46,646 nucleotides of DNA from Candidatus Latescibacterota bacterium. GTDB taxonomy: Bacteria; JAAXHH01. The position numbers were made by a program, and so were the translations under genes. Shown here in pieces: positions 32,785-46,646 of the stretch. How positions within the stretch are numbered: position 1 is the stretch's first letter; each line of letters opens with the position of its first letter. The stretch covers positions 1 through 46,646 of the forward strand of contig JAJEHX010000017.1 in NCBI GenBank assembly GCA_022823465.1, written 5' to 3'. The notes below the pieces were generated by a model. That model ran no database searches and was not told the DNA's origin. It saw nothing but the letters and a program-made list of their open reading frames with translations.

Positions 32785-32808
32785 GTGCCCCAGTGACTTA
32801 AGCAACCA

Positions 32809-33951
32809 TTACCGTTGCCTTGCCTCGTCCGCCAGGGTCGTCACCGCTTCGACCAGCGTATCCAGCTCCGCATCGCTGGTGTAGAACGCCACCGAAATCC
32901 GCACGCCGGTCGGGTCGGTCATATAGGTCGCTCGCTGGGTGATCTGCCAGCGTTCAATGAGCGCTTCAGAGACTTCCCTTCCCTCCATGCCTTCGATAGC
33001 GAAGGCGACGATGCCGGTCTGGGTGTCGGCGCGGCGTGAGCTGACGACCAGAACGCCCGGAATGGCGTCGAAGCGCGCGCGCAACGACTCTGCTTTACGG
33101 CTTGCCTCCTCGGCGATGGCCTGTGGTCCCCCGATGCCGGCCATGAAATCAAGACTGGCGCCAAGACCCTGGTAGAGGGCGCTCGCCGGGGTACCGGTCT
33201 CGTACTGCCGGGCCGTACCGTCAGGATCGTGCGGTCTCCGCAGCGGTTTCAGGACCTGCTGCGCGTCCTTACGAACATAGAGAAATCCGGTACCCATCGG
33301 CGAAAGCATCCACTTGTAGCAGTTCGTGGCGTAGAAATCGCAGCCCATATCATGCAAGTCGATCGGAAACTGCCCGACGGCCTGGCAGCCGTCCCAGAGG
33401 GTAAGAATACCGCGCGCCCGTGCCAGCGCACAGATCTCGCGGGCAGGCAACCGGGTTCCGGTGTCCGTCGTGACGTGGCTGAAGCAGAACAGCCGGGTAC
33501 GCGGGGTGATGGTTTGTTCCAGCCTTTCCAGAACCAGGTCTTTATCCTGGTCGATCTCGACCACCTTGACGACCGCCCCTTCCCGGTCCGCCAGGCCCTG
33601 GGCGGCCTGAAGGGGGACCGGATGTTCCTCACTGGTAATGATCACCTCGTCTCCTGGTTGCCAGCGCAGCCCGCCAAGCACCATGCCGTAACCTTCTCCG
33701 GTGCTCATCGTCAACGCGATTTCCCCGGCATCGGCTCCGAAGAAGCCGGCGATCTTAGCCGGCATTTCGGAAGCCGCTTCCTCCATCGCGGTGTACCAGT
33801 CGGTCGCACTCACACTGCCGCTGAGCATCTGCTGATAGCCCTCGGCCATCGCCTTGTTTACACTGGCCGGCGACTGACCGATCCCTCCGGTGTTAAAGTA
33901 GACGCCGTATTTCAGGCCCGGCATCTGATCTCGTATCCCTGCGACATCCAT
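32809..33951 (-). CDS. Class V aminotransferase (cysteine desulfurase/isopenicillin epimerase-like)
   Basis: PLP enzyme of fold type I with about 380 residues. The PLP lysine is seen in FYATNCYKWMLSPMGTGF, the phosphate and ring contacts in TMSTGEGYGMVL, ITSEEHPVPLQ, FSHVTTDTGTRLP and LWDGCQAVGQFPID (Asp to the pyridine nitrogen). KYGVYFNTGGIGQSP at the N-terminus is typical of the isopenicillin-N-epimerase-like group. I chose the ATG at 33951, preceded by AGAGGAGAG, over the upstream ATG at 34020. Reaction unknown: epimerase, lyase or transaminase activities all occur in this group. It is transcribed toward the M20 gene. Confidence 0.9.
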   Translation of the reverse strand: MDVAGIRDQMPGLKYGVYFNTGGIGQSPASVNKAMAEGYQQMLSGSVSATDWYTAMEEAASEMPAKIAGFFGADAGEIALTMSTGEGYGMVLGGLRWQPGDEVIITSEEHPVPLQAAQGLADREGAVVKVVEIDQDKDLVLERLEQTITPRTRLFCFSHVTTDTGTRLPAREICALARARGILTLWDGCQAVGQFPIDLHDMGCDFYATNCYKWMLSPMGTGFLYVRKDAQQVLKPLRRPHDPDGTARQYETGTPASALYQGLGASLDFMAGIGGPQAIAEEASRKAESLRARFDAIPGVLVVSSRRADTQTGIVAFAIEGMEGREVSEALIERWQITQRATYMTDPTGVRISVAFYTSDAELDTLVEAVTTLADEARQR

Positions 33952-33987
33952 GGGCTTCCCTCTCCTCTCAATAACCGCATTGACGCT

Positions 33988-34123
33988 GCCGTAACAGGAC
34001 CTGCGCCAGGCGGGGAGCATTATCGTAATAGGTCGAGCGTCTAGGCTGAGCTCCTTACCGCAATAGGACGGGCGTCAGGCTGGCTTCTTACCGTGACAGG
34101 ACGAGCGTTAAGACTAGGGCCTT
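33988..34123. repeat. Degenerate tandem repeats of about 34 bp
   Basis: Four imperfect units start near 33989, 34022, 34057 and 34090, each containing a version of ACCGTAACAGGACGGGCGTCAGG in 33-35 bases. They lie upstream of the aminotransferase start, in the gap before the dienelactone hydrolase gene. Confidence 0.75.
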
Positions 34124-35356: not shown

Positions 35357-35605
35357 CTATTGGACGCGTGAAGTATAGCATGGCGCGAAAAGTCGTGAAA
35401 TGAGAGGAGGCTTTTCTATCATACTTACCCGTTTAACCAAGAACGGTTCCAGCTTGAATTGCTTATATCCTTCGGTAAGAGCATCGTCATAACTTGAGTA
35501 AAATCCATGGACGGTTTCCTCTTTGATAATCACGTACTTTCCGTAGTACTCCGTCCATTCGGGAAGGTTTCGCCTATACGCTTCAAGCTCCTTTTCCAAG
35601 CTCAT
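35357..35605 (-). CDS. Small conserved hypothetical protein
   Basis: An 82-residue soluble protein. It has the pattern seen in a small widespread family that begins MSLEKELEAYRRNLPEWTEY, then GKYVIIKEETVHGFYSSYDDAL and EPFLVKRV; I know this only as a hypothetical family that is often paired with a retropepsin-like protease, which is absent here. Its ATG overlaps by four bases (ATGA) the stop of a minus-strand frame that reads upstream only to about 35740, where an insertion-sequence end lies. That suggests a partner gene was lost to the insertion. Confidence 0.6.
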   Translation of the reverse strand: MSLEKELEAYRRNLPEWTEYYGKYVIIKEETVHGFYSSYDDALTEGYKQFKLEPFLVKRVSMIEKPPLISRLFAPCYTSRVQ

Positions 35606-35719
35606 TTACGCATCTCCTTGAGGGTAAAGGTACGAGCTTTTCTGAACAGCCATTCGCTGTTCCTCGTGGTCCAGAATACAACCGCCTTCTTAGTCATACT
35701 CAGAGAGTATGAATACACC

Positions 35720-36019
35720 ATGGCCCATGGCAACGGTATTCTGAAGTCACCTCTTTTTCGTGGACGGTTGATGTACTCGAGCACGGCGCAGGTAAAAAAC
35801 ATTCGAGCTGGTGGTACGAAACTCCGACTGAAAGGAATAGGCGGAGTCTGGCGGATCGCATTTGCTTTCGACCCCGAACGCAAGGCCCTGGTTCTGGTTG
35901 CTGGCGATAAATCGGGCGTCGGTGAACAACGGTTCTACCAGCAACTGATCAGGAAGGCGGATCACCGCTTCGATCTACATCCTAATCGGTTGAAGGCTGA
36001 GAGGAGGACAAGAAGATGA
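35720..36019 (+). CDS. HigB/RelE-type toxin, probably 5'-truncated
   Basis: The C-terminal two thirds match the HigB-like RelE/ParE toxin family (an mRNA interferase in known members): GGVWRIAFAFDPERKALVLV, AGDKSGVGEQRFYQQLIRKAD and RFDLHPNRL. About 30 residues that normally precede the GRP-x region are missing. In their place the frame starts at an ATG at 35720 and reads through an IS3-family terminal repeat at 35742-35772 (KSPLFRGRL). The toxin has thus probably lost its first helices to an insertion and may be inactive. Its stop overlaps the antitoxin start by four bases (ATGA). Confidence 0.75.
   Translation: MAHGNGILKSPLFRGRLMYSSTAQVKNIRAGGTKLRLKGIGGVWRIAFAFDPERKALVLVAGDKSGVGEQRFYQQLIRKADHRFDLHPNRLKAERRTRR
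35742..35772 (+). mobile_element. Solo IS3-family terminal repeat inside the toxin gene
   Basis: TGAAGTCACC then TTTTTCGTGGACGGTT matches the intact IS end at 46507-46537 at about 25 of 30 positions, including 15 identical bases in a row (TTTTCGTGGACGGTT). The tip points left; the expected IS body to the right is absent, and toxin sequence follows directly. This is probably a scar of an internal IS deletion. Confidence 0.7.
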
Positions 36020-36345
36020 GTACGCTGACGGACAGAATGGACAAGCTGCCCCCGTCCCGACGGAAGAAGGTTGAAGAACGGGCGCAGGTACTGATTGCCG
36101 AAGAGATGTCGCTACGGGACTTACGCAAGGCTCGAAAGCAGACACAGATGCGGATCGCCAAGAAGCTCGGGATCAATCAGGAGAACGTGTCCCGCCTTGA
36201 ACAGCGCAGCGATCTGTTGATTTCCACCCTCAGCGGCTATGTCGAGGCGATGGGCGGGAGACTGAGCCTGGTGGCGGAGTTTCCGGGCCGGCCGCCGGTG
36301 GCGCTGACGGGCATTGCGGCACTGGGCGAGTCAGAATTGAAATGA
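36016..36345 (+). CDS. HigA-type XRE antitoxin
   Basis: A 109-residue DNA-binding antitoxin. After the N-terminal LPPSRRKKVEERAQVLIAEEMSLRDLRKAR, a Cro/CI helix-turn-helix (about residues 45-85) carries MRIAKKLGINQENVSRLEQRSDLL, then YVEAMGGRLSLVAEFPGRPPV, the usual ending of this XRE group. Members bind and neutralise the RelE-type toxin and repress their own operon. It overlaps the toxin by four bases and the following ATPase by four bases (ATGA at both junctions), so the three are translationally coupled. No stop or frame break is seen, so the antitoxin looks intact. Confidence 0.92.
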   Translation: MSTLTDRMDKLPPSRRKKVEERAQVLIAEEMSLRDLRKARKQTQMRIAKKLGINQENVSRLEQRSDLLISTLSGYVEAMGGRLSLVAEFPGRPPVALTGIAALGESELK

Positions 36346-37529
36346 TTCCTGAGTCCAGTCCCTTCAGACCGGGGCAGCCTGTCCCCATCGAGTTCTTCAT
36401 CGGGCGTTACCGCGAAATCGAACGGCTGCGCAGTATGGTCAATGCCAGTACGCAAGGCCGTTTCAAAATTGGCTTTGTAAGTGGTGAACGGGGTATCGGT
36501 AAAAGTTCTCTGGCGGCCTTCGTTCGTCGATTGGTCGAAACGGATAATGAAGTAGCGGGATGCCACGTCTTTCTTGGAGGCGTTCAGAATCTGAGTGAAA
36601 TGCTCAACCGTATACTACACATTCTTCTAAACGAGAGTACGGAGAAGCCTTGGCATCACAAGCTTTTGGATTTCTTCGGGGATCGCGTCAGCAAAGTAGG
36701 ACTCTTCGGGGTAACACTTGAGTTGAGTCTCTCGGAATCCGATATGTTGTCCATGGAACGCAACTTCGTACAATCCATAAGGCAACTGATTCAGGGTTTG
36801 AGGGAACACAAGAAGTCGTTGTTTCTGATTCTCGACGATATCAACGGACTGGCGGGCGCGGAGGGATTTGCCAACTGGCTGAAGAGTACGGTGGATGAGA
36901 TCGCTACGTCTCAACAGGACATGCACCTTTGTATCCTCGTCGTCGGGTTTGAAGAACGGCGCCAGGAACTCATCGCAAGTCAAATATCCCTGGCGCGCGT
37001 TTTCGAACTGATTGATATCGCGCCCTGGTCGGACGACGAAGTACGCGAGTTCTATCAATCGTCTTTCGACGTTGGCAGAGCGGAAGTTACCGATGAAGAG
37101 ATCGAGAGACTAGTCACGTTTACGGGTGGGCTTCCCGTTCTGGCGCACGAAATCGGAGATGCCGTCTGGAGGACGGCGAGGACCGCCAAAATCGACGACA
37201 ACGAGATCACCGAGGGAATCTCGATTGCCGCGGAGGTGATCGGAAGCAAACTCCTCACTCCGCAGATTTTCAGTGCCATTCGCAGTGAGAGTTATCGCTC
37301 TATCCTTCTGAAAATGGCAGACAGGCCAAGACCTCATTTCAAGCGGTCGGAGATCATGGAACTCCTGGAAGGTACGGAAAAAAAGAGGTTGGATAACTTT
37401 CTGCGCCGAATGACCGACCTGGGAGCACTTCAGAAGGATGCCCAGGGCCCGGGACGATACCGTTTTCCGAATCTACTCCACGCTTTGTACTTCTGGATGG
37501 AATCGCAACGCACGCAACACCGGCAATAG
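36342..37529 (+). CDS. AAA/STAND-like ATPase with C-terminal winged helix
   Basis: A 395-residue ATP-binding protein. FIGRYREIERLRSMV precedes Walker A SGERGIGKSS (Gly48-Ser55), then Walker B LFLILDDINGL (Asp165-Asp166), a sensor-like VVGFEERR, and WSDDEVREFYQSSFD and FTGGLPVLAHEIGDAVW, as in archaeal-type or Orc/Cdc6-like AAA_16 ATPases. About the last 90 residues look like a winged-helix domain (HFKRSEIMELLEGTEKKRLDNFLRRMTDLG). No fused effector domain is visible. Its start overlaps the XRE gene by four bases. The role is not known; coupling with a toxin-antitoxin pair suggests a defence or regulatory part. Confidence 0.8.
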   Translation: MIPESSPFRPGQPVPIEFFIGRYREIERLRSMVNASTQGRFKIGFVSGERGIGKSSLAAFVRRLVETDNEVAGCHVFLGGVQNLSEMLNRILHILLNESTEKPWHHKLLDFFGDRVSKVGLFGVTLELSLSESDMLSMERNFVQSIRQLIQGLREHKKSLFLILDDINGLAGAEGFANWLKSTVDEIATSQQDMHLCILVVGFEERRQELIASQISLARVFELIDIAPWSDDEVREFYQSSFDVGRAEVTDEEIERLVTFTGGLPVLAHEIGDAVWRTARTAKIDDNEITEGISIAAEVIGSKLLTPQIFSAIRSESYRSILLKMADRPRPHFKRSEIMELLEGTEKKRLDNFLRRMTDLGALQKDAQGPGRYRFPNLLHALYFWMESQRTQHRQ

Positions 37530-38980: not shown

Positions 38981-39616
38981 AACTCTTGCCTAGTCACCCT
39001 TTCCATCAATCGAACCTTGCCAATCTGGCGCTGTCCCATACAATCCTCTGGTTCAAATTCAAGATCGCTTCTATGCTCCAACTAATACATTTGCGAACCA
39101 CTAAAATAACCTGAGTGGGATCTTTAAGAACGAAGAAAACTCTGTCGAGAATATGGATCGACTTCAGATCTGTTTTTGCAACATTGCCGGTTGGACTCCT
39201 GCGAGGTGTAGGTACTTCGATGATGGAGGTGTGCATCAAGATCTTGACTTGGTAAGTGTAGGTAGATGGCATGCGATCTGAGCATGATGGACTGATTTCG
39301 TTTGTTATTGTTGCGGTCGTGATTCTCGCGCTGTTTATTTTCGATCAACCACCATACATTCCTCCAGCTGACAAGGAACGGAGTTGACTGTAAAGAAACC
39401 GCCATGCTGTTTAAAATCCTCAATTTGACCTGCAGTAAGCTACGCGCACTGTACACGCGAGATTCACGCACGTGGCCGGGTTTAGTACGACGCATTGGGA
39501 AATTGCAATCAGGCATAATCATGCGATGACGCGTGGATCGTGTTCTGGTTTCTAGTGTTTAAAGTCCATTACGTCGTTTCCTATTGAACGTACAACAGTC
39601 ACTTAGGAGACTTGAT
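38981..39616. other. Long AT-rich gap with only tiny open frames
   Basis: No ordinary gene is visible in these 636 bases. On the plus strand are a 38-codon membrane-peptide frame (39271-39387, listed separately) and a 41-codon basic frame at 39404-39529 (MLFKILNLTCSKLRALYT...). A 132-codon minus-strand frame across 39124-39522 has no protein character. Confidence 0.5.
39271..39387 (+). CDS. Possible 38-residue single-span membrane peptide
   Basis: The frame MRSEHDG, a 17-residue hydrophobic span of Ile, Val, Ala, Leu and Phe, then DQPPYIPPADKERS reads like a designed small membrane protein. GGTAG precedes the ATG, which is only a fair ribosome site. Small membrane peptides occur in toxin and defence loci, but nothing else supports this one. 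Confidence 0.35.
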   Translation: MRSEHDGLISFVIVAVVILALFIFDQPPYIPPADKERS

Positions 39617-40537
39617 ATGCTCGACGATCTCGTAAAATGCATCGAGAAGCTAAAATCGCGGATGGAAAGTCATGCCGCGTCATTGCAGGCAAACGAATGG
39701 CGCACCCGGACGCAACTGATTGATCCACTGCTCTGCGTATTGGGTTGGGACGTTTCCGATCCCGCGCTAGTCACACCGGAATACAACGTGGGACGGTCAC
39801 GGGCTGACTATGCGTTGCTGCAACCTGATGCGATCCCACTTGCGGTTATAGAGGCCAAAGCGCTTAGTGATACACTGACGGACGACCATCGAACTCAAAT
39901 GACTGTATACGCCAATAATGTGGGCATTAAGTACGCGGGGCTAACGAACGGTAATCATTGGGAATTGTACGATGTCTTCCAACCCGTCGCGTTAGAAGAG
40001 AAGCGGATTCTAGATCTGTCGATTGCAGAAGAACTCCCACAAATTTGCGCTCTAAAACTCCTTCTGCTTTGGCGGTCGAACCTGGAATCAGGCGAGCCGC
40101 AGGCGGCGAACGTGCCGCTTGTGTCGAAAACAAATCTGATTCCCAAGCCCCCACCGCCTGGAAATTGGGTTTCTTTGACTAAGTATGACCCGCCATTTAA
40201 AACACCACCACCTAAATCGGTAAGGTTTTGGGACGGCACAGAGAAATCGATTCGGTACTGGAATCAAGTGCTAATCTCAACAGCTGAAAAACTGTATATG
40301 GAAGGGACACTTAAAACCACTGACACTCCTATACAGTTGTGGTCAGGTGGATATAACTCCATCCATGTAGAACCGGTCCACTCTGATGGTACGGATATGA
40401 GAGCTGCACAAATCGGTGATCCACCGCTCTTTGTAAACGTCAATCTGAACAGCAAAGATCTGCGAGACGGCGCCATCCGCTTACTCAAAAAGTACGACGT
40501 GGATCCCGCGGAGGTTTATCTGTTGCCGGGGAAGTAA
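39617..40537 (+). CDS. HsdR N-terminal-like PDDEXK nuclease domain protein
   Basis: A 306-residue protein whose first 150 residues match the type I restriction HsdR N-terminal nuclease fold: NEWRTRTQLIDPLLCVLGWD (Glu27 conserved), Asp64 in SRADYALL and Glu79-x-Lys81 in AVIEAKA, the PD-(D/E)XK core, then QMTVYANNVGIKYAGLTNGNHWELYD. All key residues are present. The last 130 residues (from about PPPGNW) are not helicase and I do not recognise them; they resemble no motor domain. AGGAGA lies seven bases before the ATG at 39617. It stands apart from the type I operon and is probably an independent defence nuclease. Confidence 0.8.
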   Translation: MLDDLVKCIEKLKSRMESHAASLQANEWRTRTQLIDPLLCVLGWDVSDPALVTPEYNVGRSRADYALLQPDAIPLAVIEAKALSDTLTDDHRTQMTVYANNVGIKYAGLTNGNHWELYDVFQPVALEEKRILDLSIAEELPQICALKLLLLWRSNLESGEPQAANVPLVSKTNLIPKPPPPGNWVSLTKYDPPFKTPPPKSVRFWDGTEKSIRYWNQVLISTAEKLYMEGTLKTTDTPIQLWSGGYNSIHVEPVHSDGTDMRAAQIGDPPLFVNVNLNSKDLRDGAIRLLKKYDVDPAEVYLLPGK

Positions 40538-41378: not shown

Positions 41379-42995
41379 CTATTTTAACGGGGGTAGTCCG
41401 AGTTCTTTCAGAAACGTGTTGTGCTTCGCAGTTGACTCCTGAATCTGTTGCTCGATCTCGACCAACTCCTTGTGCGTGGCCGGAAGATCGATCTCGACCT
41501 CCGGCTCGGCCGTGCTGACATAGCGTGAGATATTCAGGTTGTACTTGTTTTTCTCAATCTCGTCCATCCCCACGCGCCTGGCGTATCGCTCTATGCTATC
41601 CGGACGTTGCTGGTAGGTGTCGATGATCTTTTCGATATGCTCGTCTGACAGATAATTCTGCCGATTGCCCTTCTCGAAATGCTCGGACGCGTTGATGAAC
41701 AGGACGTCATCGGAGTTTTTGCACTTCTTCAGGACGAGGATGCAGACCGGGATACCGGTCGAGTAGAACAGATTCGCCGGCAGGCCGATGACTGTGTCGA
41801 TGTGTCCGTCGTCAAGGAGCTTGCTGCGGATCTTCTCCTCCGTGCCGCCACGGAACAGCACACCATGCGGCAGGATGATCGCCATCACACCGTCTTCCTT
41901 GAGGTAGTGAAACCCGTGCAGCAGGAACGCGAAGTCTGCTGCCGATTTTGGGGCCAGTCCGTAGTTCTTGAAGCGCACGTCCTCGCCCAACGTCTCCCTT
42001 GGGTCCCAGCGGTAGCTGAACGGCGGATTGGCTACCACGGCGTCAAAGTAGGGCTTCTTCGCCGGGTTCATCTCGCGGAGCATGTCCCAGTCGTTGGTTA
42101 GTGAGTCTCCGTGATAAATCTCGAACTCCAAGTCCTTCACTCCGTGCAGCAGCATGTTCATCCGTGCGAGGTTGTAAGTGGTGATGTTCTTCTCTTGCCC
42201 GTAGATCTTGCCGATGCCGCGTGATCTCATGTGCTTCCGCACGTTGAGCAGCAGCGAGCCTGAGCCACAGGCGAAGTCCATTACGCTGGTGAGACGATTA
42301 CGTTTGCCAGACTTCGGCTCCTGGCTGTCGAGGGTGACGATTTCGGAGAGGATGTCCGAGATCCGCTGCGGCGTGTAGAACTCACCGGCCTTCTTACCCG
42401 AGCCAGCGGCGAACTGGCCGATCAGGTACTCATAGGCGTCGCCGAGAGTGTCGCTGTCAGTGGAGAATTCCGCTAGGCCCTCGGCGATCTTAGTTATGAT
42501 TGTACAAAGCTTTGCGTTCCGGTCCGCGTAGTTCTTACCAAGCTTATCGGAGCTGAGGTTTATTTCTGAGAAAAGCCCGGAGAAGGTGCTTTGAAACGAC
42601 TCGTTCTCGATATACTTGAAGCTGTCTTGGAGCGTGTTGAGCAACTCGTCGTTCTGGGTGCGGGCCATGTGGGCGATGTTAGCCCAGAGGTGCTCGGGTT
42701 TGATGATGTAGTGCGCTTTGAGCCGCATCTGCTTCTCGAACGCCGACACATCGCCGGGATTCTGCTCGTACCAGTCGGGCAGGGCGGACCACCCGTCGTT
42801 GCTGATGCCGTCCTCGTCGGGGTAGTCGCGGCCTAGCTCCTTCTTCGCGGCCTGCTCGTAGTTGTCTGAGAGGTAGCGGAGGAACAGGAACGCGAGCATG
42901 TAGTCGCGAAAATCGTCCGCGTTCATCGCCCCGCGAAGCTGATCCGCGACGGCCCATAGTGTTTTACCAAGCTGTTTCTGGTAGTTTTCGGTCAT
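41379..42995 (-). CDS. hsdM: Type I restriction-modification methyltransferase subunit HsdM
   Basis: N6-adenine methyltransferase subunit, 538 residues. N-terminal HsdM helical domain (residues 1-135, with LWAVADQLRG and YMLAFLFLRYLSD), then AGEFYTPQRIS, SAM-binding motif I DFACGSGSLLLN (240-251), catalytic NPPF (323-326) and a C-terminal NLNISRYVSTAEPEVEID part that contacts HsdS. It would make 6-methyladenine in the HsdS-chosen sequence. It is the last gene of the operon; its ATG overlaps the ATPase stop by four bases. No break is seen. Confidence 0.97.
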   Translation of the reverse strand: MTENYQKQLGKTLWAVADQLRGAMNADDFRDYMLAFLFLRYLSDNYEQAAKKELGRDYPDEDGISNDGWSALPDWYEQNPGDVSAFEKQMRLKAHYIIKPEHLWANIAHMARTQNDELLNTLQDSFKYIENESFQSTFSGLFSEINLSSDKLGKNYADRNAKLCTIITKIAEGLAEFSTDSDTLGDAYEYLIGQFAAGSGKKAGEFYTPQRISDILSEIVTLDSQEPKSGKRNRLTSVMDFACGSGSLLLNVRKHMRSRGIGKIYGQEKNITTYNLARMNMLLHGVKDLEFEIYHGDSLTNDWDMLREMNPAKKPYFDAVVANPPFSYRWDPRETLGEDVRFKNYGLAPKSAADFAFLLHGFHYLKEDGVMAIILPHGVLFRGGTEEKIRSKLLDDGHIDTVIGLPANLFYSTGIPVCILVLKKCKNSDDVLFINASEHFEKGNRQNYLSDEHIEKIIDTYQQRPDSIERYARRVGMDEIEKNKYNLNISRYVSTAEPEVEIDLPATHKELVEIEQQIQESTAKHNTFLKELGLPPLK

Positions 42996-44182
42996 TCGGT
43001 CGCCCTATCGACTGATTCTATAGTTACCAGCGATTTAAAATGCTCAGGATTGAAACGGAATCGCCTAAGGAAGACATCTAGGATGTCCTGAAAGTGTTTC
43101 TTGTCCTCATCGAGCAATTCGGAGGATTCGAAATGCGAATAACCACCATGACTGTACAGGTTTAAAAAACGACGGTGCAATTTGGCGTCGAATCCGTGAC
43201 CATCGTCTTGTATACACTCCTCAAAGCGTTGATATCCGTGAAAACTGGCCGCCTTCTCAGCAATAGCGCGAAGTGAATTGTAATGCCGCTTCTCGACGTG
43301 TCCCCGTTTAGCATCTTTGTACAACTCTATCAATGCGGAAATATGGTGGAAAAAGGGCGTTGCACCAGTGTCTCGGAGTACGAAGGTGTCATTATCGCTC
43401 TCCTTTCCGAGGAAGAGGCGTCGACATTTCTCACTCCTCAATTCGTTCCACAAAACATTATGAAACAGCGGGTGATGCGTAGAAATGACAACACCGGGTG
43501 GATCAGTTGCATCTCGAAGAAGGTTGACAAGGTGCACAGCAACTTGAACCGCATTCTGATCGTCAAGAGACGAAATTGGATCATCGATGTAGAGATACTT
43601 GACCCACTTGTAGGCATCAAGGTCGGAGTCAAGCACTAGCTGCAGGATTGCTACAAAAAAGCACCAGACAAAGATACTCTCTTCACTTCGAGACACCTTA
43701 ATACCCTCAATCTTCTCCAGCCTAGGGTTATTTTCTACTACAGTGAGAACATCACGAGAAAACACAATTCTACCAGTCTTGAGTTTTCCATCCTCAGTGT
43801 CAGTATCAAGGATCATCTCGAAGTCAAAGTCTGCATATCGATCCAAGATGGTACGAATGCGTGTCTCTACTTCGTATTCCTCTAGTGCCTCGAAAAATCG
43901 GGATGCTGTATTCAGAATGAGAAATCGATTTTGGTCATGCTCAAGATCATTGTTCCACGTGAACAGGTCCTCGGTGAAGGCGTTGAAGTAGAGCGTGTCG
44001 CCGCGTTGTTTGGTTTCGCCATCGGTATTCACACCTTTGCCGATGTTCTTGAATGCGGTGGATAGCCGGGTCTTGCCCGTGCCGTTATAGGCGTAAAGCA
44101 GGATGAACTTCTTGTTCTCCAGCTCTTGCCGCAGGTGTGCGGCGAGGTTTTTGAGGTCCGTGAACGGGGTTGCGTCGTTCAT
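42992..44182 (-). CDS. AAA ATPase inside the type I operon, PrrC/anticodon-nuclease-like
   Basis: A 396-residue ABC-type ATPase of the AAA_13 group. Walker A YNGTGKT (residues 32-38), signature-like IKVSRSEESIF (161-171), Walker B YLYIDDPISSLDD (197-208) and H-loop STHHPLF (234-240) are visible. No long coiled coil or zinc hook is present, which excludes RloC. In the C-terminal part Arg305-x3-Glu309 and His345 occur in the order and near the spacing of the Arg320/Glu324/His356 triad reported for E. coli PrrC. PrrC cuts tRNA-Lys when a phage disables the type I enzyme it sits in. Here the gene lies between hsdS and hsdM, with 3 bases and a 4-base overlap. The nuclease activity is inferred. Confidence 0.78.
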   Translation of the reverse strand: MNDATPFTDLKNLAAHLRQELENKKFILLYAYNGTGKTRLSTAFKNIGKGVNTDGETKQRGDTLYFNAFTEDLFTWNNDLEHDQNRFLILNTASRFFEALEEYEVETRIRTILDRYADFDFEMILDTDTEDGKLKTGRIVFSRDVLTVVENNPRLEKIEGIKVSRSEESIFVWCFFVAILQLVLDSDLDAYKWVKYLYIDDPISSLDDQNAVQVAVHLVNLLRDATDPPGVVISTHHPLFHNVLWNELRSEKCRRLFLGKESDNDTFVLRDTGATPFFHHISALIELYKDAKRGHVEKRHYNSLRAIAEKAASFHGYQRFEECIQDDGHGFDAKLHRRFLNLYSHGGYSHFESSELLDEDKKHFQDILDVFLRRFRFNPEHFKSLVTIESVDRATE

Positions 44183-44185
44183 GAC

Positions 44186-45496
44186 TCACTGCCTGTCCAG
44201 CGATGGAAAGAGCTGCTGCAGCAGACCCTGCTTGTGCATCTTGAGGGCGCTGATCTTCTGCACCTGTGCGGCGAGCCGGGCGTCGAGCGAGGCAAGACAG
44301 TTGGCGATTCGCTGCTGCTCGGAAAACGCAGGCGCAGTCACTTTGACAGTTGCAAATATGCTCTTGTTTATGATTGGCACCGCCTGCTTGCCCGCAAGCC
44401 TCGTGATACGTACAGACTCCCTGTCGAGGAGGTAGTAGGCAAAGTCTGCGACAAATGCAGGGCTCGCGACAAGGGAGTTTATCTGCTGATTGGTCGCGCA
44501 TAGTCGTGAGCATTGAGCCACCTTGCCGATTGTGGATCCGATGCAAACAAACAGGATACTGTTCTTCTCGATGGGACGACACTCCGCAAAGCCTGCGGCG
44601 GTCAGTGTCGTATTAGTCTCTTCCACAAACCGTAAATCAGAGATATCCGCCGGCGAAACGAACATGAAATCGCCACCGTAGAAATCCCTTTTTGACGTCG
44701 AGGGAGTGCTCCCCGTTATGACCTCGCCCATGTTGCCAATTGTCGTCTCTTCCCACGCCCCATCTTCGCTGAATTCGGGGAAGCGGAGGCAGGGCACGGT
44801 TTCACCGGCCTGGGGGAAGAGTTGCTGCATCAGCCCTCGCTTGTGTTCCCGCAGGGTTTCTAACTTCTGGACCTCAGTCGCGATCAGATCGTCCAGTGAA
44901 CCCAAACAGTCGACTATCTTCTGCTGCTCGGCCACTGTCGGCGGGATTGGGATCGGAACAGCCGAAATTCGCTTCGCCGATATGCCGTAGACCTTCGCGC
45001 CCTGAGCTTCTTTCTTTATCCCAGCACGGACAGCAGCGGATTGGAATAGTTGCCCTCCGAAGCCAACGACAGGGACGTTCCCTCGCCGGGTCCCGAGTAT
45101 GGTGTGCGTACCAGCAACGACGCGTTCTCCCTGTAGTGAAACAACTTCGATTGCTTTTCCTACGTCGTTGAGATCTTCTGACGCGTCGGCAAGTACGATG
45201 TCGCCTTCCTCACAGAATGCGTCATCATCAAATCCTTTAGATCTGGAGCCAGGATTGACATAAGGCACATGCTCTTCACACACTTGGAACAGAGGCTTGA
45301 ACTTGGTGTGAATATCTCCGTAATGAATGTTCCTGATTGTTCCGGTCACGTAGTTAAGTTCGTCTCTCGACAGCGTGTTGGTGCGCTTAAATTCATACAG
45401 GTCCTCGAGTAGTGGGGCCGACCAGGGCGGGTCGTCTTGAAACTCTGGGAACCGCAGTTTCGGCACAAGGTGCATTGGCTTATCGGTTTTTGTCAT
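44186..45496 (-). CDS. hsdS: Type I restriction-modification specificity subunit HsdS
   Basis: A 436-residue DNA-recognition subunit with two target-recognition domains. Domain 1 spans about 15-185, followed by the conserved coiled spacer SLDDLIATEVQKLETLREHK and GLMQQLFPQAGE (about 205-240). Domain 2 (about 245-395) is followed by the second copy, SLDARLAAQVQKISALKMHK and QLFPSLD. Each domain reads half of a bipartite sequence, which cannot be predicted here. The gene overlaps hsdR by four bases and is three bases from the ATPase. It looks intact. Confidence 0.96.
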   Translation of the reverse strand: MTKTDKPMHLVPKLRFPEFQDDPPWSAPLLEDLYEFKRTNTLSRDELNYVTGTIRNIHYGDIHTKFKPLFQVCEEHVPYVNPGSRSKGFDDDAFCEEGDIVLADASEDLNDVGKAIEVVSLQGERVVAGTHTILGTRRGNVPVVGFGGQLFQSAAVRAGIKKEAQGAKVYGISAKRISAVPIPIPPTVAEQQKIVDCLGSLDDLIATEVQKLETLREHKRGLMQQLFPQAGETVPCLRFPEFSEDGAWEETTIGNMGEVITGSTPSTSKRDFYGGDFMFVSPADISDLRFVEETNTTLTAAGFAECRPIEKNSILFVCIGSTIGKVAQCSRLCATNQQINSLVASPAFVADFAYYLLDRESVRITRLAGKQAVPIINKSIFATVKVTAPAFSEQQRIANCLASLDARLAAQVQKISALKMHKQGLLQQLFPSLDRQ

Positions 45497-46506
45497 GCGC
45501 TTCCTTGCTCGTAGGCGATTAGGCCCGAAATGACCCGGCCCTGGGCTCGCTTATTCAGCACTGGAACGAGATCAGCCATCAATGCGAGCTCGCGCTCGCG
45601 GCGTTCACGCCAGTGCAGGTCGAGCGGCGCCAATAGGTCGGTGAGCTGTTCGCCGTCGAAGACCATGAGTTGAAGGATGGTGTCAACGAAGGCCGTGAGG
45701 GACTGGTTCGTCAAACCGTGGGACTGGGCGAGATCCTCGATCTCCTTGGCTTGCTTTGCGGCCTTGAACTGCTCGTATCCAGTTTGGACCGCGGCCTCGT
45801 CAAGACCTTCGCCCACCTTGAGTGAGCGGACGTACTCGGTGATCTCCTCTCGTTCGTCGAGGAACTTGGCGTCGGATTGGATCAGTCCAATAAGCTGCTC
45901 GTGGCTGAATTTGACCTTCTTGGGGTCCTGTTGGGAGTACTTGGCGATGAGCTTCATGATGTAGTCGTAGTCGATGAGGGCGGATGCGAAGAGGACGAAC
46001 TCGAAGTCGAGTTGTTCGACCTCGAGATTGGCCGGTCCGACGATTCCGCCGGGTGTGCCCTGCTGCTCTTTCAGGCGCTGGGCGGTTTCGAGGTAGGCGC
46101 CGCGGAAGGCATAGCGGTCTTCCTTGGGGAGGGCCTCCTCAATCTCCTCGCGCTGCTCGTCGGTAAGGTCAGTGTACTGGTCGAGTTGCGTCTGGAGCCG
46201 CTGAACCTCCTTGAATCGTTTGACGAACTGGATGCGGGCGTCGTCGCCCTTCAGGTTGTTCACCTGATCGGGCCTGGCTTTGAGATCCTGCGACTGCATG
46301 AACTCGCCGAGATCGTTGACGGCCTGTTTGAATTTGCCGATGACGACGGGCGCCTTGTCCACAAGCCAAATCTCGCGGGCCCGGTCGGGTTGTGCACCGG
46401 AGAAGAGCGTGATGGCCTCGTCGACGTTTTCTTGCTGCTGGCGGAAGTCGAGGATGTGGCCGTAGGGCTTGGTCGTGTTGAGAATGCGGTTGGTGCGGGA
46501 GAAGGC
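45493..46506 (-). pseudogene. hsdR: hsdR 3' fragment cut by an IS3-family insertion
   Basis: The minus-strand frame from 46506 to 45493 encodes the last 337 residues of the type I restriction subunit. Its first residues AFSRTNRILNTTKPYGHILD are the motif VI region of the helicase motor, immediately preceded by an IS end at 46507. After that comes the helical C-terminal domain that binds the methylase core (LVDKAPVVIGKFKQAV, DLTDEQREEIEEALP, then the final EQGSA). A GTG at 46362 could restart translation, but the nuclease and most of the motor are not attached. Any 5' part must lie beyond the window, across the insertion. Restriction is therefore probably lost. Confidence 0.88.
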
Positions 46507-46646
46507 TGATGTTACCCCGTTTTCGTGGACGGTTTATCATTTGGGATTCAGGCTGTTTTCTTGAGCCTCCTTTCGTAGTTTAAGGGTGAGAGATACCCGA
46601 GGGAAGAGTGTCTTCTCCGGGTGTTGTAGAAGCCCTCGATGTATTG
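46507..46646 (-). mobile_element. IS3-family insertion sequence, 3' end, continues past window
   Basis: The last 33 codons of a DDE transposase read on the minus strand from 46646 to the stop at 46548: QYIEGFYNTRRRHSSLGYLS, then YERRLKKTA. YNTRRRHSSLGYLSP is the IS3-family C-terminal signature. Behind the stop is a terminal repeat whose tip, TGATGTTACCCCGTTTTCGT, begins at 46507. Its tip joins the hsdR sequence exactly at a codon boundary. The reading frame has no damage in the visible part, so the element may still be active. Confidence 0.9.

Follow-up and report, generated by a model that had tools for sequence, protein, structure and literature searches.

The PrrC protein of Escherichia coli (EcoPrrC) is held latent by the type I restriction-modification (R-M) enzyme EcoprrI and set free when that enzyme is inhibited; anti-PrrC serum precipitates HsdR, Stp or dTTP activates the protein, and mutations in its ABC signature abolish dTTP binding (PMC3014915). 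R320, E324 and H356 of EcoPrrC have been named as its catalytic triad, and the corresponding residues of RloC are required for RloC activity (PMC2610378). Both PrrC and RloC have been assigned to HEPN (PMC3710099). A further member, PrrC170 from Klebsiella quasipneumoniae, shares 35% identity with EcoPrrC and is encoded in the order HsdR-HsdS-PrrC-HsdM; its expression led to growth arrest and depletion of tRNA-Lys, and it gave protection against T1 and T7 (PMC11555353).

Here, we analysed a prrC-like gene in the window, that is, the whole stretch of 46,646 nucleotides from a Candidatus Latescibacterota bacterium. The gene (42992..44182, minus strand) is an open frame of 396 aa that encodes an ABC-ATPase head followed by a HEPN-like, putative anticodon-nuclease domain, and it belongs to a type I R-M operon with the order hsdR-hsdS-prrC-hsdM, in which it comes directly after hsdS. 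The C-terminal part of hsdR (45493..46506, minus strand) forms a frame from AFSRTNR onwards and matched EcoR124_C at 45493-46362 with E = 2.4e-61; it is followed by hsdS, the specificity subunit (44186..45496, minus strand), and, behind prrC, by hsdM, the type I methyltransferase (41379..42995, minus strand). The initial annotation had reported an ATPase gene between hsdS and hsdM, and we found this ORF to be real and flanked as described. Its account of overlapping genes was right for two of the three junctions, the 4-bp overlap of hsdR and hsdS and that of prrC and hsdM (ATGA), in which the hsdM start codon overlaps the prrC stop, but at the third junction prrC lies 3 nt downstream of hsdS. 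Elsewhere in the window, a gene pair for a Gp49/RelE-like toxin and an HTH antitoxin (35507-36345) is followed by a gene for an AAA_16/STAND-like ATPase (36342-37529).

The encoded protein matched the PADLOC PrrC profile PDLC02360 over residues 7-383 with E = 5.6e-119 (7.7e-148 for the E. coli-type and 2.1e-142 for the Klebsiella-type reference), and Pfam AAA_13 with E = 1.2e-12. BLASTP gave 32% identity to E. coli-type PrrC, for which a database sequence was the yardstick of identity and alignment, and 51% to a homologue on a K. quasipneumoniae plasmid. R305-x3-E309 and H345, with 36 residues from E309 to H345, aligned exactly with R320, E324 and H356 of EcoPrrC, and R305, E309, R338 and H345 were invariant in 90/90 relatives of the same branch and in 4/4 of the prototype order. 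Judged on this alignment, the match of the triad is far beyond chance, because the residues sit on the PrrC catalytic columns between homologous proteins and are invariant in relatives. A HEPN-type R-x4-6-H motif was also present (R338-FLNLYS-H345, Rx6H), and all four residues lie in the C-terminal HEPN-like domain, at about residues 275-375 of the product of this minus-strand gene. The ABC head carries Walker A (GTGKT, 34-38), the signature (SRSEE, 164-168), Walker B with the D-loop (YIDDPISSLD, 198-207) and the linchpin His236. Within the signature S164-R165-S166-E167-E168 (43679..43693, minus strand), Ser166 was unique among 95 sequences, as 93 of the 94 relatives have Gly, one has Ala and none has Ser. 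Taken together, the profile, the alignment, the tree, the catalytic residues and the operon position support the initial annotation in reading this as a PrrC-like protein, and the HMM search that it had called for gave the profile matches above. Its positions for the triad and the 36-residue spacing were correct, while the HEPN-type motif was absent from it; the ABC motifs that it called complete are indeed all there, but with a Gly-to-Ser change in the signature.

Relatives were encoded in at least 568 stretches of the genome collection and in 113 plasmid records, and no homologue of the window protein was found in the phage collection. Members occurred in Pseudomonadota, Acidobacteriota, Verrucomicrobiota, Bacillota, Cyanobacteriota, Spirochaetota, Planctomycetota and other phyla. 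Among 93 loci examined, prrC came after hsdS in all but one, which was short on sequence or annotation, and the two genes were adjacent in nearly all loci with a contig long enough. Outside the prototype form, the gene after prrC was almost always hsdM, which gives the order hsdR-hsdS-prrC-hsdM. In a tree from a quick search that held only four sequences of the prototype order, this form was split from the prototype form (hsdM-hsdS-prrC-hsdR) by a branch with 100% support. Some loci had additional genes: on two IncA/IncC plasmids, a large ATPase annotated as TrlF-family and an RNA-binding or regulator protein are encoded between hsdR and hsdS (L011 and L026), and at L030:1658-5721 an intact hsdR (1013 aa) is followed by an extra hsdR-like fragment of 131 aa just ahead of hsdS. 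The form hsdR-hsdS-prrC-hsdM is already known, because PrrC170 has exactly that order, and it has been tested by others; the window protein is a new member of the PrrC family. Overall, this less-studied order is common across bacterial phyla, with the prototype on a separate branch. The window gene is ordinary as a PrrC homologue; what deserves attention is the broken hsdR and the unusual residue in the ABC signature.

The hsdR gene is split, a feature absent from the initial annotation, by an IS3-family element at a site that we take to be helicase motif VI, with a 3-bp duplication (GCC). The window contig (C50) ends within the element, the right end of which (46507..46646, minus strand) runs off the contig, and contig C6 starts within its other end (L014:1-143). 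The first gene of C6 is an ORF of 674 aa that represents the N-terminal part of hsdR. Along the gene, C6 reads NLKHHGLIQA and then the IS, and C50 reads the IS and then AFSRTNRILN, with the codon GCC on both sides, where intact relatives read GLIQAFSRTNR; we infer that C6 and C50 join across the element. Both IS ends matched, with 100% identity, a copy on contig C18 (about 32803-34040), in which they lie about 1.2 kb apart, and this explains the assembly break; an end with 87% similarity was found on C33. No other copy of EcoR124_C was found in the genome. With hsdR split by the element, restriction has presumably been lost, whereas the frames of hsdS, prrC and hsdM are still open. Neither half of hsdR looks decayed, and the ends of the IS match another copy exactly, so the insertion is probably recent. 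Apart from the hsd operon, the window also encodes a free-standing protein of 317 aa with an HSDR_N-type nuclease domain (39584-40537).

We consider it very likely that the window protein is a PrrC-family guard in a type I R-M operon, which would be kept latent through the Hsd complex and would cut the anticodon loop of a tRNA, most likely tRNA-Lys, if that complex is disturbed; the cut expected of a PrrC protein is in tRNA-Lys, 5' of the wobble base. In this reading, a head like those of SMC and Rad50 is joined to a putative HEPN-type ribonuclease domain bearing R305, E309, R338 and H345; the Hsd complex would silence the protein, as homology suggests; and cleavage of the tRNA upon disturbance would stop translation. 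With hsdR interrupted, the protein would face only the methylase (HsdM2S), perhaps together with the C-terminal fragment of HsdR, so that the usual guard mechanism may have stopped working in this genome. The protein may then be silenced by the methylase or the HsdR fragment, made in low amounts because its gene lies behind the IS, or impaired by substitutions of its own, such as the Gly-to-Ser change in the signature. The interrupted hsdR is a natural test of whether HsdR itself or the methylase alone keeps PrrC silent. Should silencing require HsdR, prrC must be either weakened or not expressed in a live cell that carries this operon; should it not, the methylase suffices. A live cell with an intact, active PrrC and no HsdR would show that HsdR is dispensable for silencing.

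Among the other explanations, it is possible, though somewhat against the odds, that the operon is a decaying remnant, in which the IS insertion abolished restriction and prrC, attenuated or inactive, is carried along with the substitutions that it has accumulated. This concerns the present activity of the window copy and not its family membership, and its probability overlaps with that of the guard reading. The split hsdR with its 3-bp duplication in a genome without a second EcoR124_C copy is consistent with such a remnant, as is the unique Ser166. Moreover, the window protein departed from the conserved columns at 8 of 96 positions against a median of 1%, the second-highest rate, and no other tip of the tree was as long as its own (0.95; median 0.16). 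This divergence was not matched by HsdM (74.4% against a mean of 73.4%) or HsdR (66.7% against 68.1%), which were undiverged, while PrrC was diverged (50.8% against 58.1%). However, the ORF is intact, the four catalytic-site residues, Walker A, Walker B and the linchpin His are all kept, and L022 is also fast-evolving, yet its operon is intact. The probably recent insertion cannot account for the long branch, and with undecayed hsdR halves and identical IS ends we found no support for the view that prrC evolved fast because hsdR was lost. Ala274, which stands in the alignment at the position of Asp287 of EcoPrrC, a published wobble contact, was likewise rejected as a sign of decay: the column varies within the branch (Asp in 45/90), and Ala is found in L027, the nearest relative, as well. 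As this column varies, the tRNA target may differ within the hsdR-hsdS-prrC-hsdM branch, and, given Ala274, tRNA-Lys is a putative target of the window protein.

Loci with a damaged or missing hsdR were also found among the relatives. L051 (196-9627) holds two tandem hsdS-prrC-hsdM units, the second of which is preceded by an hsdR C-fragment of 338 aa; this fragment begins at motif VI, exactly where the IS has inserted in the window. L050 has an intact prrC with no hsdR within 5.7 kb upstream. In L090, an hsdR C-fragment of 320 aa lies beside transposase genes, prrC is intact and no hsdM was found in the locus; in L034, a low-coverage assembly, hsdR is split over two frames beside an intact prrC; and in L033 an hsdR C-fragment lies at the contig edge. 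Because an intact prrC was the criterion for choosing loci, and several of the assemblies are drafts, the recurrence is a lead and not a rate. One reading of them, which we hold to be unlikely, is that the guard outlives the guarded enzyme in a minority of the hsdR-hsdS-prrC-hsdM loci. There, the tRNase would be kept in check by the methylase, perhaps with a remaining HsdR C-terminal domain, and would sense methylase disturbance independently of restriction, in a toxin-antitoxin-like manner. This reading draws on the loss of the hsdR nuclease part in the window and in the second operon of L051 and the missing upstream hsdR of L050, with open hsdS, prrC and hsdM in all three, and on the truncated or frame-split hsdR of L090 and L034.

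We further examined the structure of the window protein with an AlphaFold model built from 68 sequences of the window and the genome collection. The model had a mean pLDDT of 85 and no long coiled coil, and its best fold matches in the PDB were the heads of SMC and Rad50, with Gabija GajA and retron ATPases lower down. Sequence searches of the PDB with the window protein gave no match, and no PrrC structure was found. R305 and E309 share one helix of the model (298-314), and H345 is found where a second helix (330-344) ends. When the C-terminal domain was modelled alone (residues 262-384; 43031..43399, minus strand), it was all-helical with a pLDDT of 83, and its fold search returned HEPN structures only as non-significant matches (E about 3-6). 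This last result, the resemblance of the head to SMC and Rad50 and the loss of the tRNA-recognition Asp are consistent with an ABC-ATPase accessory of the type I R-M system that is not a tRNase, for instance a sensor of DNA ends or DNA loops or a nuclease acting on another RNA. We regard such a function as quite improbable, as the residues that form the catalytic site of a proven tRNase are invariant and PrrC170, a published family member encoded in the same order, targets tRNA-Lys.

An RloC-type nuclease is highly improbable, since the Ser often found before the His of R-x3-E...H in RloC (PMC2610378), seen here as Ser344 before His345, stands against a length and profile that are those of PrrC, the lack of a coiled-coil insert, a separate RloC-like protein in the same genome, and the missing zinc hook noted by the initial annotation (396 aa, no CxxC, cysteines only at 174, 253 and 323), on which the assignment was ruled out. 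That RloC-like protein is an 862-aa ABC-ATPase (CxxC at 375; R768-x3-E772...H823; PADLOC PDC-S06, E = 0) in a second type I R-M locus on contig C53 (L017:2206-15915, minus strand), together with part of hsdM, hsdS and an hsdR of 1049 aa. Thus, one genome carries both PrrC-like and RloC-like proteins in R-M loci.

Compared with the known systems, the PrrC-family protein of the window shares with RloC the logic of the catalytic motif and the ABC head. It differs from RloC, which is about twice its length, in having neither coiled coils nor a zinc hook. E. coli PrrC, from the type IC system EcoprrI, likewise has 396 aa, an ABC-ATPase joined to a nuclease domain, the R/E/H triad columns and a gene directly after hsdS. 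At 32% identity, however, it lies on the opposite side of the fully supported branch, and neither its prototype order hsdM-hsdS-prrC-hsdR nor the intact restriction subunit of EcoprrI occurs in the window, where hsdR is split by the IS3-family element. The plasmid homologue from K. quasipneumoniae (NZ_AP022145), 51% identical to the window protein, is encoded in the same order, except that two accessory genes separate hsdR from hsdS. PrrC170 is alike in family and gene order, and the window operon differs from it in its broken hsdR and in Ser166 of the ABC signature.
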